From positions 1-37,979 of the forward strand of contig DVLO01000042.1 in the NCBI GenBank assembly GCA_018715495.1: a DNA stretch of 37,979 nt, read 5' to 3'. A program made the position numbers and the translations under genes. The notes below the pieces were generated by a model. That model saw nothing but the letters and a program-made list of their open reading frames with translations, had not been told where the DNA came from and searched no databases. Numbering within the stretch: position 1 is the first letter of the stretch; every line of letters begins with the position of its first letter. The stretch is from Candidatus Limihabitans stercoravium. GTDB taxonomy: Bacteria; Bacillota; Clostridia; Christensenellales; CAG-314. Shown one piece after another: positions 4,743 to 37,979 of the stretch.

Positions 4743-5600
4743 ATGAGTCTTATCAAGCTTACCGATGTATCGTACAGCTACAAAGTACCTGCCGATGACG
4801 ATTCCTACACATGGCAAGTGGGCGTCAAGGATGTCAGCCTTGAAATTGAGAAAGGTTCTTTTGTTGCGCTGGTCGGACACAACGGCTGCGGCAAGAGTAC
4901 TCTTGCTAAACTGTTAAACGGATTGTTCATTCCGCACAATGGCACTGTAGAAGTGGACGGCATGACAACCGATGACCCTAAAAATATATTCAAGATTCGC
5001 AGTACTGTCGGCATGGTTTTTCAGAACCCCGACAACCAGATGGTAACAAGTATTGTTGAAGAAGACATCGCTTTCGGACCGGAAAATCTTGGTGTCCCGC
5101 AAAAGGAAATCGTCGAACGTGTAAAGTGGGCGCTTGACAAGGTTGGAATGTCGAAATTTGCTAAAAACACCACGACAAAGCTGTCAGGCGGACAGAAACA
5201 GCGTATCGCAATTGCGGGCGCACTTGCAATGCATCCGCAGGTTTTGGTGTTGGACGAATCCACCGCAATGCTTGACCCACAGGGAAGAAAGGAAGTTCTG
5301 GAAGTTGTTCATTCGCTCAACAAGGAAGAAAACATGACGGTGGTGCTGATCACTCACTTTATGGAAGAAGTGCTTGGCGCAGACAAGGTGGTTGTCATGA
5401 ATCACGGACAGAAGGTAACCGAAGGCACACCTATGGAAGTGTTCAGTCGCAGTCAGCTGCTTGATGAAGTGGGTTTGAAGATTCCACGCACAATCGAACT
5501 GGCACGCAAACTCAACAGTGCCGGTTGGGATGTTGATGTAAATTGTACCGACGCAACGGAATTGGGGGATAGAGTATGTCAATTGTTGCAAAACAACTGA
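4743..5600 (+). CDS. ecfA1: Energy-coupling factor transporter ATPase EcfA1
   Basis: This is one of two ATPases that drive ECF vitamin transporters from the cytoplasmic face of the membrane. The product has 285 residues. Walker A is GHNGCGKST (about residues 45-53), the ABC signature is LSGGQ (about 147) and Walker B is VLVLDEST (about 166). The Q-loop lies in GMVFQNPDNQM, which is typical of EcfA. The ATG at 4743 follows GGAG. The next gene starts inside its last 25 bases, so the two ATPases are probably translationally coupled. No S component is encoded nearby, as expected for the shared energy module of group II ECF systems. Confidence 0.95.
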   Translation: MSLIKLTDVSYSYKVPADDDSYTWQVGVKDVSLEIEKGSFVALVGHNGCGKSTLAKLLNGLFIPHNGTVEVDGMTTDDPKNIFKIRSTVGMVFQNPDNQMVTSIVEEDIAFGPENLGVPQKEIVERVKWALDKVGMSKFAKNTTTKLSGGQKQRIAIAGALAMHPQVLVLDESTAMLDPQGRKEVLEVVHSLNKEENMTVVLITHFMEEVLGADKVVVMNHGQKVTEGTPMEVFSRSQLLDEVGLKIPRTIELARKLNSAGWDVDVNCTDATELGDRVCQLLQNN

Positions 5601-6430
5601 ATTTCATATACAACCAAGGCACGCCCTTTGAAAAACATGCCCTTCGTGACGTAAATGTGGAAATCGGCGACGGCGAATTTGTAGCCATTGTCGGACACAC
5701 AGGCAGCGGCAAGACGACATTTGTTCAACATCTCAATGCATTGATTCGTTTGCAGAGCGGTAGCCTTACCGTCGGTGACATCGACCTTACACAGAAGAAA
5801 ACCGATCTCAAGAGATTGCGTGGTATGGTGGGAATGGTATTTCAGTACCCTGAATATCAACTGTTTGCCAACACAGTTGAAGAAGACATCGCCTTTGGAC
5901 CTAAAAACATCGGTGTGGACAAGGAAAAAATAGAAACCCTTGTCAAGGATTCGCTTGAACTGGTTGGGATGCCCCTTGCAGTGTTGAAGAAATCGCCCTT
6001 CGACCTGTCGGGCGGTGAAAAACGTCGTGTTGCGTTGGCAGGAGTGCTGGCAATGCAACCCAAGGTGCTTGTGCTTGACGAACCCACGGCAGGGCTTGAC
6101 CCCAACGGTAAGAGAGAAATCTTGTCTTTGGTAAAAAAACTCAACCGTGAAAAGGGCATTACCGTAATCATGGTATCGCACGACATGAACGAAGTTTTCG
6201 AAAATGTCGACCGTGTAATAGTGTTCAATCAGGGACAGGTGGTGCATGACCTTCCGCCCAGAGAATTGTTCCGTAAGCAGCAGGACGTGGAAGGAATGAA
6301 TCTTGAAGTTCCCTACGTTGCACAGTTTCTTAACGCCCTTGAAAGTCACGGCGTTGTGTTGAATCAGGACATCAGAACAGTTGATGAGGCATTTGCCGCA
6401 GTCAACGCTTTGAAAGGGGGTAGCAAGTAA
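5576..6430 (+). CDS. ecfA2: Energy-coupling factor transporter ATPase EcfA2
   Basis: This is the second ATPase of the ECF energy module, which forms a heterodimer with EcfA1. The product has 284 residues. Walker A is GHTGSGKTT (about residues 40-48), the signature is LSGGEKRRVALAG (from about 145) and Walker B is VLVLDEPTAGLDP (from about 164). The start overlaps the end of ecfA1 by 25 bases in another frame. The stop overlaps the start of ecfT by one base. This supports one polycistronic mRNA with fixed subunit ratios. Confidence 0.95.
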   Translation: MSIVAKQLNFIYNQGTPFEKHALRDVNVEIGDGEFVAIVGHTGSGKTTFVQHLNALIRLQSGSLTVGDIDLTQKKTDLKRLRGMVGMVFQYPEYQLFANTVEEDIAFGPKNIGVDKEKIETLVKDSLELVGMPLAVLKKSPFDLSGGEKRRVALAGVLAMQPKVLVLDEPTAGLDPNGKREILSLVKKLNREKGITVIMVSHDMNEVFENVDRVIVFNQGQVVHDLPPRELFRKQQDVEGMNLEVPYVAQFLNALESHGVVLNQDIRTVDEAFAAVNALKGGSK

Positions 6431-7275
6431 TGTTTCGTGACATAACATTCGGACAGTACTACCCGTCCAATTCATTTGTGCACAAGATGGATGCACGTAT
6501 CAAGTTGGTTTTAAATCTATTGTACTTGATCGGAATCTTTTTTGTCGTTTCCTTTGTGGGCTTTGCCTGGATTACGTTGTTCTTGCTCATTGCAATTTTC
6601 GCATCGAAAGTTCCGCTGAAAAACGTACTGAAGTCGGTAAAAGGCATTTTGTTTTTGATGCTTTTCATGATTGTATTGAACGTCTTTTTCACCAAGGGAG
6701 AAAATCTGCTTGTAAAGTGGTGGATCTTTGAAATTTACGCCGAAGGTCTGATTTTTGCAGCCAAGATGTTTTTGAGACTGAGTTACCTTGTAATAGGTTC
6801 AAGTCTTTTGACATTGACGACAACACCCGTTGACCTTACCCACGCACTGGAAAGTCTGTTGAAACCTTTGACATGGATTAAAGTGCCCGTGCATGACCTT
6901 GCGTTGATCATGAGTCTTGCGCTTTCACTTATTCCCAGTCTGATCAACGAAACAGACCGTATAATCAGGGCGCAGAAGGCAAGAGGTGCGGATTTCGACA
7001 CGGGCGGACTCATCAAACGTGCCAAGGCATTTGTACCCATTCTGATACCTTTGTTGGTGTCCAGTTTCCGCCGTGCGGAAGAACTTGCATTTGCCATGAA
7101 CAGTCGTTGCTACGAAGGTTCAACACATCGTACATGTATGCGTGTAATGAAGTTGTCGTGGCGTGATTTTGTGGGTACGTTGGTCGTAATTTTGTTCTTT
7201 GCAGCAGTGTTTACGGTGTATGCAACACAGGACACCTGGGGACTTTCGGAAGGTCTCAAGTGGCTGTATTTCTAG
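6430..7275 (+). CDS. ecfT: Energy-coupling factor transporter transmembrane protein EcfT
   Basis: EcfT is the membrane scaffold that links the two ATPases to interchangeable substrate-binding S components. The product has 281 residues. The N-terminus (FGQYYPSNSFVHKMDARIKL) is characteristic. Several hydrophobic segments follow (about residues 25-85, 98-125 and a last one at about 240-265). The coupling region has the first Ala-Arg-Gly motif in QKARGADF (about residue 181) and a second, diverged as MNSRCYEG (about residue 222), a form I recall as common in Firmicutes. The ATG overlaps the ecfA2 stop as TAATG. truA follows after 8 bases. Confidence 0.95.
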   Translation: MFRDITFGQYYPSNSFVHKMDARIKLVLNLLYLIGIFFVVSFVGFAWITLFLLIAIFASKVPLKNVLKSVKGILFLMLFMIVLNVFFTKGENLLVKWWIFEIYAEGLIFAAKMFLRLSYLVIGSSLLTLTTTPVDLTHALESLLKPLTWIKVPVHDLALIMSLALSLIPSLINETDRIIRAQKARGADFDTGGLIKRAKAFVPILIPLLVSSFRRAEELAFAMNSRCYEGSTHRTCMRVMKLSWRDFVGTLVVILFFAAVFTVYATQDTWGLSEGLKWLYF

Positions 7276-29538: not shown

Positions 29539-30177
29539 TTATCCCTTGTATTTTGTATTAAAACCGTGATTGTCCTGTGGCCTGAGGTCATTGGGAAAAT
29601 GCACGTCTGTTTTAATGTCATTTACAATTTTTTGCAGGTTGTTTACTACTGCGTAGGGTGAGTCGATGTCCCACAGTACTTGTGCGCTGGACGTTGCCTT
29701 GATGTAGATATCTCCCACTCCGCACATCTTGTCGACTATTCCGACACGAAGGTTTACGTTGGAGATTTCGGTGTAGTAAATGTTGTTGATGTCTATACCT
29801 ACAAGTCCAGATTTGATGATGATGCGTTTATTTGTAAACACGTAATCAATGTTCTTGTGCCTTGCACTTGCCGTCACAATGTTGTGAATCCATATCCACA
29901 CAGGGATCAGATGTATTGCGAAGAACACAACAATCAGTATTGCAAATCCGCCTAATTCAGCAAAAATGTTGTTTGCTAACATCATGTATATGAAGAATCC
30001 GTCGAAACACAGCCAAATCAAGGCGAATGGCAACATTTTCAGTACGTTGTTGAGTACGAATGCCTTTTTATTGGGCTTTCCTTGCCAGACGATTTCTTCA
30101 TCGGCCCCTACAAGTGAACTTATGTCGTATGGTTGGTCGTCTGAACCACCGAAATACTTTTCATCGAATTTAGCCAT
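29539..30177 (-). CDS. Membrane protein with a bacterial PH-like (bPH2, DUF304-type) domain
   Basis: The role of this 212-residue protein is not known. An N-terminal cytoplasmic stretch contains GADEEIVWQGKPNKKAFVLN, a start often seen before PH-like domains in membrane proteins. Two hydrophobic segments lie at about residues 48-70 and 75-98. The PH-like part follows with YVFTNKRIIIKSGLVGIDINN (about 130-150) and ISNVNLRVGIVDKMCGVGDI, both typical of the domain. The start has AAGGAGAAAAAC upstream. Its promoter abuts the first copy of the 254-bp repeat, which may carry control sites for it. Confidence 0.85.
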   Translation of the reverse strand: MAKFDEKYFGGSDDQPYDISSLVGADEEIVWQGKPNKKAFVLNNVLKMLPFALIWLCFDGFFIYMMLANNIFAELGGFAILIVVFFAIHLIPVWIWIHNIVTASARHKNIDYVFTNKRIIIKSGLVGIDINNIYYTEISNVNLRVGIVDKMCGVGDIYIKATSSAQVLWDIDSPYAVVNNLQKIVNDIKTDVHFPNDLRPQDNHGFNTKYKG

Positions 30178-30196: not shown

Positions 30197-30225
30197 ATGA
30201 TATCAAATTACATCAGTAAAGTCAA
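30197..30225 (-). promoter_or_regulatory. Promoter of the PH-domain protein gene
   Basis: On the minus strand TTGACT (30220-30225) and TATCAT (30197-30202) are spaced by 17 bases. The repeat motif CTACTACCGTA begins 8 bases upstream of the -35. Confidence 0.72.
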
Positions 30226-30232
30226 CCTCATT

Positions 30233-30742
30233 CTACTACCGTAGGGGTACTATGCAAAGCTTAATTCTGTTAACAAGAACTTGTTTAATATCAATTATTC
30301 TTTAGCCGTACCTGTTTCTAGAAGTCTACTACCGTATGGACAGGGAATGATACATGCCGGCACATTTGTGCACCTGATACGTATGCAACAAGTACATACA
30401 TTGAGATTGAACTGTCGCACACTTTGAAAACATATCAACCCTGATGTTGATGTCTATAAAAGTTTTAGTAGTCGCCGTACGCAGTACTACTACCGTAGGG
30501 GTACTATGCAAAACTTAGTTCTGTTAACAGGAACTTGTTTAATATCAATTATTCTTTAGCCGTATCTATTTCTACAAGTCTACTACCGTATGGGCAGGGC
30601 ATGATAAATGCCGGCACATTTGTGCACATGATACGTATGCAACAATTACATGCATTGAGATTGAGCTTTCACACACTTTAAAGACATATCAACCCTGATG
30701 TTGATGTGTATAAAAGGTTTAGTAGTCGCCGTACGCAGTACT
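30233..30742. repeat. Two tandem copies of a 254-bp non-coding repeat
   Basis: Copy 1 (30233-30486) and copy 2 (30487-30740) align end to end without a gap and differ at about 18-20 positions, roughly 92-93% identity. Each unit holds the 11-mer CTACTACCGTA twice (30233, 30326, 30487, 30580). Hairpins kept in both are GCACA-TT-TGTGC, ATCAAC-CCTGAT-GTTGAT and AACAAG-AA-CTTGTT; the last becomes AACAGG in copy 2, still pairing through G-U. No open frame fills the unit. It lies between the promoter of the PH-domain gene and a tRNA. The function is unknown; an operator array, a structured RNA or a dispersed repeat family are all possible. Confidence 0.9.
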
Positions 30743-30807
30743 CACGTTATTTCAGAATCCGCATGGCGCAATCAAAAGGGAAGCGAAGCACAAAGAAGCG
30801 GGAATAA

Positions 30808-30836
30808 AGAAAAGGAACGGTAGAACCCGTTCCTTC
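30808..30836 (-). terminator. Terminator of the tRNA-Val gene
   Basis: AAGGAACGG (30812-30820) pairs perfectly with CCGTTCCTT (30827-30835). On the minus strand it is followed by TTCTTTATT, 35 bases after the tRNA. Confidence 0.75.
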
Positions 30837-30870
30837 TTTATGCCTGCGACTAAAAGCAAGCTTTCCGTAA

Positions 30871-30947
30871 TGGTAGAGACAGTAGGGCTCGAACCTACGA
30901 CCTCTTGCATGTGAAGCAAGCGCTCTGACCAACTGAGCTATGCCTCC
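30871..30947 (-). tRNA. tRNA-Val (anticodon CAC)
   Basis: The minus strand reads GGAGGCATAGCTCAGTTGGT at the 5' end, with a normal D arm. The anticodon loop is TTCACAT between CTTGC and GCAAG, giving anticodon CAC for GUG. The T arm contains GGTTCGAGCCC. The acceptor stem pairs GGAGGCA with TGTCTCT (two G-U pairs), and ACCA is encoded at the 3' end. The length is 77 bases. Confidence 0.96.
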
Positions 30948-31103
30948 ACAACGTGTACTGTTATTATAGTACTGTATTTTCCCGTTGTCAATTGAGTTTT
31001 AAAAAATAAACCACATTTTTTGTCGAACAGGGTAGTTGTGAAGTCAATAGAGCGTACAAAAAAATTGCATATTATCAAATGCACCCCATCTGAAAGTGTA
31101 GTA

Positions 31104-36823: not shown

Positions 36824-37979
36824 AATTCTGACATAAACGCAGAGTGTGCGTATACGTCGCGTTTGGTGGAGTTGTTCCGTCCAAATCCGAACCTAATTCG
36901 GCGGTGATTTCGTCTATTGTGGCTGTTTTTGAGCCGTCTTTGTAGTTAAATGTGAATACTACCTTGTCATCATAGACGAACACGGCGTTCACAAAGCTCT
37001 CGACTAGTCGTTTTCGGCTTGCAATGTCAGTCAAATCAGCGTCGCGGAATTTGCTTATCCAAAAGGCAATGTGTTCCTTTGTAATCCTCGGCTTTTGTAA
37101 TTCCTCGCTATAAATGGCGACTTTCAGTTCTTCCTTTTCCTGTTCTAATGCTTCAAGCCGCTCTTTTGTAGAGGGAGTGAGTATACCTTGCTGTATTGCG
37201 TTCAGCATATTCTGTATGCCGTTCTCTATCTCTTTCAGGCGCCCGTTGAGTTGCGGCAGCTTGGAGTTCTCCTGTGCGAGAATGTTGAGTATCGCATCGG
37301 CAATGTGGTCAATGAGTTCGTCGTCCATGACAATTTTCATGATGTAATGAATGACGGCATTCTCGATCCAATCTTTCTTTACGGGCTTTTTGTCGCATCC
37401 CATCTTGCGCTTGGCATGGGAGCACTTATAATAGCGATGAACGGTTCCCGTGTGGCTCCTGCCGCTCTCTCCGACCATGAACGTGCCGCATTTGCCGCAA
37501 AACAGCCGAGTCGTCAAGATATAGTCGTCCTCCGCTTTGCGCATGGCGGGGGCCTTTTGATTTCTCGCCATGATCTCCTGCACGCGATTGAACAGATCTT
37601 CGGAGACGATGGGCGGAATGGCGTCGGGGATCATCATATCGCGGAATTTGTACTCTCCGATATACCGCCTGTTTTTGAGAAGGTAGTGGACGACGTTGAG
37701 CGTGATCTTGTTTCCCTGCGTCGTGCGAATGCCGCGCCGCGTCAGGTCTTTGGCAATATCGGTCATTCTTTCGCCGTCGGCATAGCGGGTAAAAATTTCC
37801 ACGACGACGGGAGCGGTCGTTTCGTCAATTTCCAGGCGCTGATCTTTCATGCGATAGCCGAATGTCAGCCCGCCGCCGTTCATCTTGCCCTTTAAGGCGT
37901 TTTCCGTCAAGCCGCGCCCGATTTTTTCGGAGAGATCGACCGAATAGTATTCTGCCCAGCCCTCAAGCATCGATTCGAG
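36822..37979 (-). CDS. Large serine recombinase, N-terminal part outside the window
   Basis: These recombinases integrate and excise mobile elements through a Ser nucleophile. The frame is open to the window edge; about 385 residues are visible and the catalytic domain lies outside. The visible part begins SMLEGWAEYYSVDLSEKIGR, the end of the catalytic domain. The recombinase domain follows with GYRMKDQRLEIDETTAPVVV and HYLLKNRRYIGEYKFRDMMI. A zinc ribbon reads CGKCGTFMVG and later YYKCSHAKRKMGC. A coiled-coil region follows (LEALEQEKEELKV). GC content is visibly higher than in the neighbours, which suggests transfer. An attachment site would be expected near its 3' end. Confidence 0.92.
   Translation of the reverse strand, partial: LESMLEGWAEYYSVDLSEKIGRGLTENALKGKMNGGGLTFGYRMKDQRLEIDETTAPVVVEIFTRYADGERMTDIAKDLTRRGIRTTQGNKITLNVVHYLLKNRRYIGEYKFRDMMIPDAIPPIVSEDLFNRVQEIMARNQKAPAMRKAEDDYILTTRLFCGKCGTFMVGESGRSHTGTVHRYYKCSHAKRKMGCDKKPVKKDWIENAVIHYIMKIVMDDELIDHIADAILNILAQENSKLPQLNGRLKEIENGIQNMLNAIQQGILTPSTKERLEALEQEKEELKVAIYSEELQKPRITKEHIAFWISKFRDADLTDIASRKRLVESFVNAVFVYDDKVVFTFNYKDGSKTATIDEITAELGSDLDGTTPPNATYTHTLRLCQN

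Follow-up and report, generated by a model that had tools for sequence, protein, structure and literature searches.

The tandem pair of 254-bp copies that separates a tRNA-Val(CAC) gene from a PH-domain gene in Candidatus Limihabitans stercoravium is probably, at a probability that we put at about 0.6, a truncated, non-autonomous, module-duplicated member of a family of elements that spread among tRNA 3′ ends. The window analysed here is the whole 37,979-nucleotide stretch of contig DVLO01000042.1. Read along its minus strand, the locus comprises the tRNA promoter, the tRNA-Val(CAC) gene, a terminator-like hairpin, an arm ending in TGAAATAACGTGA, copy 1, copy 2, and the promoter and start of the PH-domain gene (Table 1). 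From this order, the array is the tail of the tRNA gene, and the head of the PH-domain gene by position only. Several observations form the basis of this reading: the tRNA-linked position and orientation of the tails, their copied 3′ ends, one pair of filled and empty sites, tandem arrays, a difference in occupancy between two species of one genus, a module that is present or absent at the apex, and precise module ends with compensatory mini-hairpins. An earlier note on this DNA, which described the repeat, had noticed neither the tRNA gene at 30871–30947 (−) nor the recurrence of the unit's ends behind other tRNA genes.

Table 1. Features of the tRNA-Val(CAC) tail and its surroundings, in minus-strand order (window coordinates).
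Feature	Position	Strand	Basis
tRNA-gene promoter, TTGACA-17-TATAAT	30963..30991	−	12/12 consensus positions
tRNA-Val(CAC)	30871..30947	−	ARAGORN; Rfam tRNA, 69.4 bits
Proximal tail: trailer with terminator-like hairpin (30810–30837), arm ending TGAAATAACGTGA	30741..30870	−	terminator scan
Module copy 1, tRNA-adjacent, 254 bp	30487..30740	−	repeat search; both ends match other modules
Left-end mini-hairpin GTAC-TGC-GTAC, copy 1	30731..30741	−	stem paired in 16 left ends
Internal imperfect right end ATAC-GGTA-GTAG, copy 1	30580..30591	−	sequence; inferred
Right-end mini-hairpin CTAC-GGTA-GTAG, copy 1 (CTACTACCGTAG on the plus strand)	30487..30498	−	stem paired in 13 right ends
Module copy 2, distal, 254 bp	30233..30486	−	repeat search; copy comparison; end matches
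Left-end mini-hairpin GTAC-TGC-GTAC, copy 2 (one base in common with the right end of copy 1)	30477..30487	−	
Internal imperfect right end, copy 2	30326..30337	−	sequence; inferred
Right-end mini-hairpin CTAC-GGTA-GTAG, copy 2	30233..30244	−	
PH-domain gene promoter, TTGACT-17-TATCAT, abutting the array, outside the repeat	30197..30225	−	10/12 consensus positions
PH-domain gene	29539..30177	−	bPH_2 domain

A repeat search of the window placed the two copies at 30233–30486 and 30487–30740, 93% identical and gapless. Direct comparison gave 235 identical positions out of 254; the other 19 are all substitutions, transitions in 11 cases, and there are no indels, in agreement with the earlier description of two copies that differ in sequence and not in length. 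The 11-mer CTACTACCGTA occurs at 30233, 30326, 30487 and 30580, as described earlier, and a count across the 1.716-Mb genome (G000), a check proposed in the earlier note, returned these four copies in the array and no others, against three matches for the reversed-pattern control. The 11-mer is part of the module's right-end mini-hairpin (CTAC-GGTA-GTAG). Its inner occurrence in each copy corresponds to an imperfect right end, so that the 254-bp unit may be a fusion of two older modules of 161 and 93 bp.

No further copy of the full unit was found in the same genome, in the other genome of the genus (G001) or in the family, nor in the phage and plasmid records searched with it; 395 other genomes of the order contained none, yielding only two matches of approximately 30 nt. 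Rfam scans of the window and the locus returned the tRNA only. Whole-unit folding was ordinary for both strands of both copies, with z-scores of −0.64 to −1.50 relative to shuffled sequences. The hairpins named in the earlier note are present; since the folding of entire units does not surpass that of shuffles, however, the gapless alignment and the conserved hairpins, from which constraint had been surmised, are weak signs of it, and the lack of indels beside 19 substitutions is likewise weak evidence. The proposal that the copies are structured RNAs finds no support for the whole unit, given its ordinary folding, the lack of an Rfam match and the terminator that precedes the array, even if the mini-hairpins at its two ends covary between copies.

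Both ends of the window unit are found again at other loci of the genome, almost all of them behind tRNA genes and oriented like the tRNA. The left end matches other modules over 22 nt at 95% identity and the right end over 30 nt at 87%, at loci that include tRNA-Thr, tRNA-Ser, tRNA-Pro, tRNA-Val and others. In a permissive search the junction between the copies matched a tRNA-Thr locus (contig C26, 37544–37575) at 97% over 32 nt, and pieces matched further places. The proximal tail (30741–30870) aligns with the tails of tRNA-Pro in G001, tRNA-Ser(CGA) and tRNA-Val(TAC). A species-specific repeat family, one of three options raised earlier, thus comes closest to what was found: the body of the unit is confined to its own genome, but its ends and surroundings are those of a family of tRNA-tail elements that spans the order.

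A full tail, read on the tRNA strand, consists of a terminator-like hairpin, GAAATNNNGTGACG or a similar sequence, a variable apex, GCTATTCCGTCGC-TTC-GCTCCTTAC, and a stretch that repeats the tRNA in question from its T-loop to its 3′ end. The parts follow the scheme tRNA, terminator hairpin, GTGACG arm, optional module, CCGTCGC-TTC-GCTCCTTAC arm and same-tRNA 3′-end copy, and no coding capacity was found inside the tails. The apex is a short hairpin in some tails and a module in others: the tRNA-Val(TAC) tail of G001 has no module (GTGACG[CTCAAGCAACAAGTTGCTTTC]GCTATTCCGTCGC), whereas one is present in the homologous tail of C. L. stercoravium (GTGACG[GTACTGCGTACGG...GTGTGGCAACACTTT]GCTATTCCGTCGC). 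Modules have GTAC-TGC-GTAC-GGCGACT or variants at their left end and AGTGCCC-CTAC-GGCA-GTAG or variants at their right end. Judged by these end sequences, the window unit is the inner module of such a tRNA-tail element. The window tail is tandem and lies behind a tRNA, but it has neither the distal arm nor the tRNA 3′-end copy and is for this reason regarded as truncated. Only tRNA-Val and its promoter region are common to the window locus and G001, which precludes a direct empty-site comparison.

The mini-hairpins at the module ends vary in a compensatory manner. In the right ends, a set of 13 that includes four sequences from a relaxed search, the 4-bp stem is always paired and three of its four pairs are changed on both sides (GC/CG, AT/GC, CG/TA). 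The left-end stem is paired in 16 of 16 sequences, a set that excludes variants with a four-base loop, and two of its four pairs are changed on both sides (AT/GC, CG/TA). Neither set, in which copies from one genome are related to each other, contains a one-sided change; the covariation score was maximal in register and was reached by none of 500 shuffles. This is the pattern of change expected of structured ends. As GTAC-type stems are self-complementary, a process acting at the DNA level could also maintain their symmetry. Pairing of the left end with the right end was considered and rejected as less consistent: modules with different left and right stems exist, and local hairpins therefore fit better.

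In the genome of C. L. stercoravium, tails are located behind tRNA-Thr(GGT), Ser(CGA), Ser(GGA), Pro(CGG), Val(TAC), Val(GAC) and Val(CAC), and also behind tRNA-Ile, Asn, Trp, Arg(CCG), Leu(CAG) and Gln(CTG); the neighbourhoods of tRNA-Thr(CGT), Tyr, Glu(CTC), Leu(TAA), Arg(ACG), Ser(TGA) and some others contained none. Tails behind Val(TAC), Gln, Trp, Asn, Leu(CAG) and Pro are common to this genome and G001. The latter has no tails at Val(CAC), Thr(GGT), Ser(CGA) and Val(GAC), and it has one at Leu(TAA), where the former has none, a difference in occupancy that is consistent with both gain and loss. Several assembly contigs stop in or just past tail-bearing tRNAs or tails. A run of tail modules at L120 (C21:25188–25760) begins after GGTCTTTCTAGCCA with no recognisable tRNA gene, perhaps marking a tRNA that was lost or has decayed. 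Downstream of a tRNA-Met (L113, from 2901, contig C35) and a tRNA-Ile (L103, from 2198, contig C45) there are apparent antisense copies of the tRNA's own anticodon arm, interrupted by small hairpins and followed by a direct T-arm piece and then TGACGC.

The wider family was traced through the distal motif GCTATKCCGTCGCTWCGCTCCTTRCRA. At up to 3 mismatches, 34 of the 200 order genomes searched contain it, and the reversed pattern has no match; at up to 2 mismatches, none of 372 genomes sampled from other orders of the class does. Named records bearing it are gut Clostridia MAGs, some of them under the names Christensenellaceae, Christensenella or Candidatus Coproplasma. Sixty distinct motifs lie within 1.5 kb behind a tRNA or tmRNA on the same strand; 53 of these are followed by at least 9 nt of the 3′ end of that same gene, and 47 by at least 12 nt, compared with 2% and 0.25%, respectively, in controls with other tRNAs. 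An insertion flanked by an intact tRNA and a partial copy is thus characteristic of the family (53/60), although not of the truncated window copy. Dispersed repeats at a distance from tRNAs (L151, L165, L173, L189, L216 and others) contain the motif as well, followed for example by GACCGAAGCG...GGAGAAATCTC; the motif alone is therefore not diagnostic, whereas the motif together with a tRNA end is. Upstream of the arm, a T-arm copy in inverted orientation (at least 7 nt; 43% versus 14%) is enriched but not general, and was rejected as a universal part of the tail.

Tandem units that lie behind a tRNA and carry its 3′ end were seen in many members of the family, the window copy being tandem without that end. 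The units are regular, about 140–200 bp long; at a tRNA-Cys gene (L149), five tandem units of approximately 158 bp each begin at the T-loop. Genes for tmRNA (L139, L141, L150, L159 and L220) have tails of the same type, in which the copied 3′ end is that of the tmRNA. One locus (L185) could be compared as a filled site with the empty site at tRNA-Ser(TGA) of the C. L. stercoravium genome (contig C41): the flank past the element and copied tRNA end matches the flank directly behind the C41 tRNA at 97.5% over 80 bp, and this common flank may be the end of another mobile element. No description of Clostridia tRNA tails of this kind was found in the open-access literature, which does not in itself prove novelty.

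The repeats at the tyrT/tyrV locus of Escherichia coli (rtT/RttR RNA, RF00391) resemble the tails in being tandem non-coding units directly behind a tRNA, on the same strand and with copies of the tRNA 3′ end. In the K-12 strain the units behind tyrV are spaced at 178 bp, and every one of them closes with AATCCTTCCCCCACCACCA, which corresponds to the final 19 nt of the tRNA; hairpins (GGGCGAAGCGC...) precede the tRNA copy, and an inverted piece of the tRNA 3′ part, GGGGAAGGAT, lies upstream. The E. coli repeats belong to one tRNA, whereas the Clostridia tails occur at many tRNAs and at tmRNA; the former are annotated as an ncRNA and with a tpr reading frame, and neither is known for the tails; and the E. 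coli units hold the tRNA 3′ copy that is missing from the window. The RF00391 covariance model matched the E. coli positive control but had no match at E ≤ 1 in the C. L. stercoravium genome and none in the window, so that membership was rejected, the layout being alike and the sequence not.

Integrative elements that target tRNA genes (phages, ICEs and islands) share with the tails an intact tRNA on one side and a partial 3′ copy on the other, as well as tandem accretion and the use of tmRNA. They span kilobases, whereas the tails measure tens to hundreds of base pairs, are gene-free and have no linked integrase, and a single family of tails serves many unrelated tRNAs, the copied end agreeing in each case with the local tRNA. 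Serine recombinases adjoin tails at tRNA-Ser ends only, and at those ends also integrate without a tail; they were therefore rejected as the general mobiliser. In two genomes, a tail at a tRNA-Ser 3′ end is immediately preceded by a gene for a large serine recombinase (L119, 4184–6079, plus strand; L160, reverse strand, about 4941–6536), which suggests integrative elements that use tRNA-Ser ends beside tails. At the far end of the window (36825–37979, minus strand), the C-terminal part of a large serine recombinase, with Recombinase and zinc-ribbon domains, runs off the contig, and related recombinases sit behind tRNA-Ser genes in G001 (L310 and L313). REP/RAYT and IS200/IS605-like elements are, like the tails, short, dispersed, non-coding, hairpin-forming and presumably non-autonomous; unlike them, the tails lie behind tRNA or tmRNA genes with copied gene ends. 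A mobiliser of the RAYT/IS200 type was rejected, as no Y1 transposase (PF01797) was matched in the C. L. stercoravium genome, a MAG that is 94% complete and in which a gene could have been missed. Integron attC-like sites have imperfect palindromic ends, covarying stems and exchangeable segments, a resemblance only, and the tails differ from attC systems in having no gene-bearing cassettes.

In the mechanism that we favour, family members would be short non-autonomous insertions, of tens to a few hundred base pairs per unit, 3′ of tRNA and tmRNA genes. A complete unit would carry or recreate the 3′ end of its host tRNA, from the T-loop to CCA, and displace the DNA formerly downstream; the tRNA gene would stay whole because the inserted unit brings or rebuilds the local 3′ end. 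The mini-hairpins would take part in recombination or replication as single strands in folded form, with the mobilising enzyme presumably provided from elsewhere, and movement of the elements is likely. The pair of 254-bp copies would then be a tandem duplication of the inner module in the hairpin-rich non-coding tail of tRNA-Val(CAC), a secondary event that may be neutral. If a circle that bears a tRNA end integrates in the classical way, this accounts for one tRNA. Standard attP/attB integration does not explain how the body of one family comes to stand behind many tRNAs and to be joined at each to the 3′ end of that tRNA, and either promiscuous T-loop recombination with conversion or a duplicative or template-switching step is therefore needed. 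No recombinase, transposase or reverse transcriptase tied to the family was found, and a viral origin was rejected, the distal motif being absent from viral contigs.

The tails could instead be part of the tRNA precursor transcript, as 3′ trailers that form hairpins, mimic the tRNA 3′ half and serve as sponge, decoy or processing signal, as was earlier proposed for rtT/RttR RNA and other tRNA trailers; the window module would then be a duplicated piece of such an RNA. Their invariable tRNA orientation, the covarying end mini-hairpins and the ncRNA annotation of the E. coli analogue fit this role. We nonetheless think it unlikely, since a terminator-like hairpin (30837–30810) stands between the tRNA and the array, as at the start of many tails, whole units fold like shuffled sequence, conservation of the unit body does not reach even the sister species, and single tails are gained or lost between species. 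Little probability also attaches to the tails being scars, that is, old attachment sites and tandem accretions of ordinary integrative elements at tRNA 3′ ends, retained and duplicated by chance. The same arms stand behind many unrelated tRNAs and tmRNA, mostly with no large element or integrase, the distal motif is not found in viral contigs, and the tandem units are regular in length; against this must be set the serine recombinase genes that adjoin tRNA-Ser tails in two genomes and lie behind tRNA-Ser in G001, and the partial tRNA copies commonly left by integrating elements, in examples that are kilobases long (PMC9897764).

Two further explanations concern the window array itself. The earlier note named a lack of copies elsewhere among the signs that would point to simple neutral duplication, here of unremarkable intergenic DNA. 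The full unit is indeed unique to this locus, its 19 substitutions are scattered and its folding is ordinary, but this argument overlooks the composite nature of the unit, whose two ends both match module ends at other tRNA loci and whose copy–copy junction recurs at the tRNA-Thr locus. As a full account, neutral duplication is thus contradicted and appears improbable, even if the duplication step was neutral. That the 11-mers form an operator array for the PH-domain gene, as had also been proposed, is very improbable. The nearest 11-mer does lie 8 bases from the −35 box, as reported, with the promoter (30225–30197) outside the repeat; equivalent mini-hairpins of other sequence, however, follow unrelated tRNAs at loci that lack a PH gene, the 11-mer itself is found nowhere else in the genome, and two of its four occurrences are imperfect internal copies within the duplicated unit. 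The window copy probably does not regulate the PH-domain gene.

Beyond the reading of the window array as a truncated family member, a more speculative generalization, which we advance tentatively and think may well be wrong, is that gene-free miniature elements move among tRNA and tmRNA 3′ ends throughout the order, carrying or rebuilding the local end and swapping modules bounded by covarying mini-hairpins. They would spread through single-strand folding, promiscuous T-loop recombination or template switching, outside the described integrase pathways, and could also explain the E. coli tyrT repeats. Those repeats have so far been an isolated oddity, for which a large family of the same layout behind many tRNAs provides comparative material. 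The family raises the questions of how a sequence acquires the 3′ end of its host tRNA and whether the tails are selfish DNA or functional trailers. In these genomes, the tails may also account for contig breaks at tRNA genes and for spurious partial tRNA calls.
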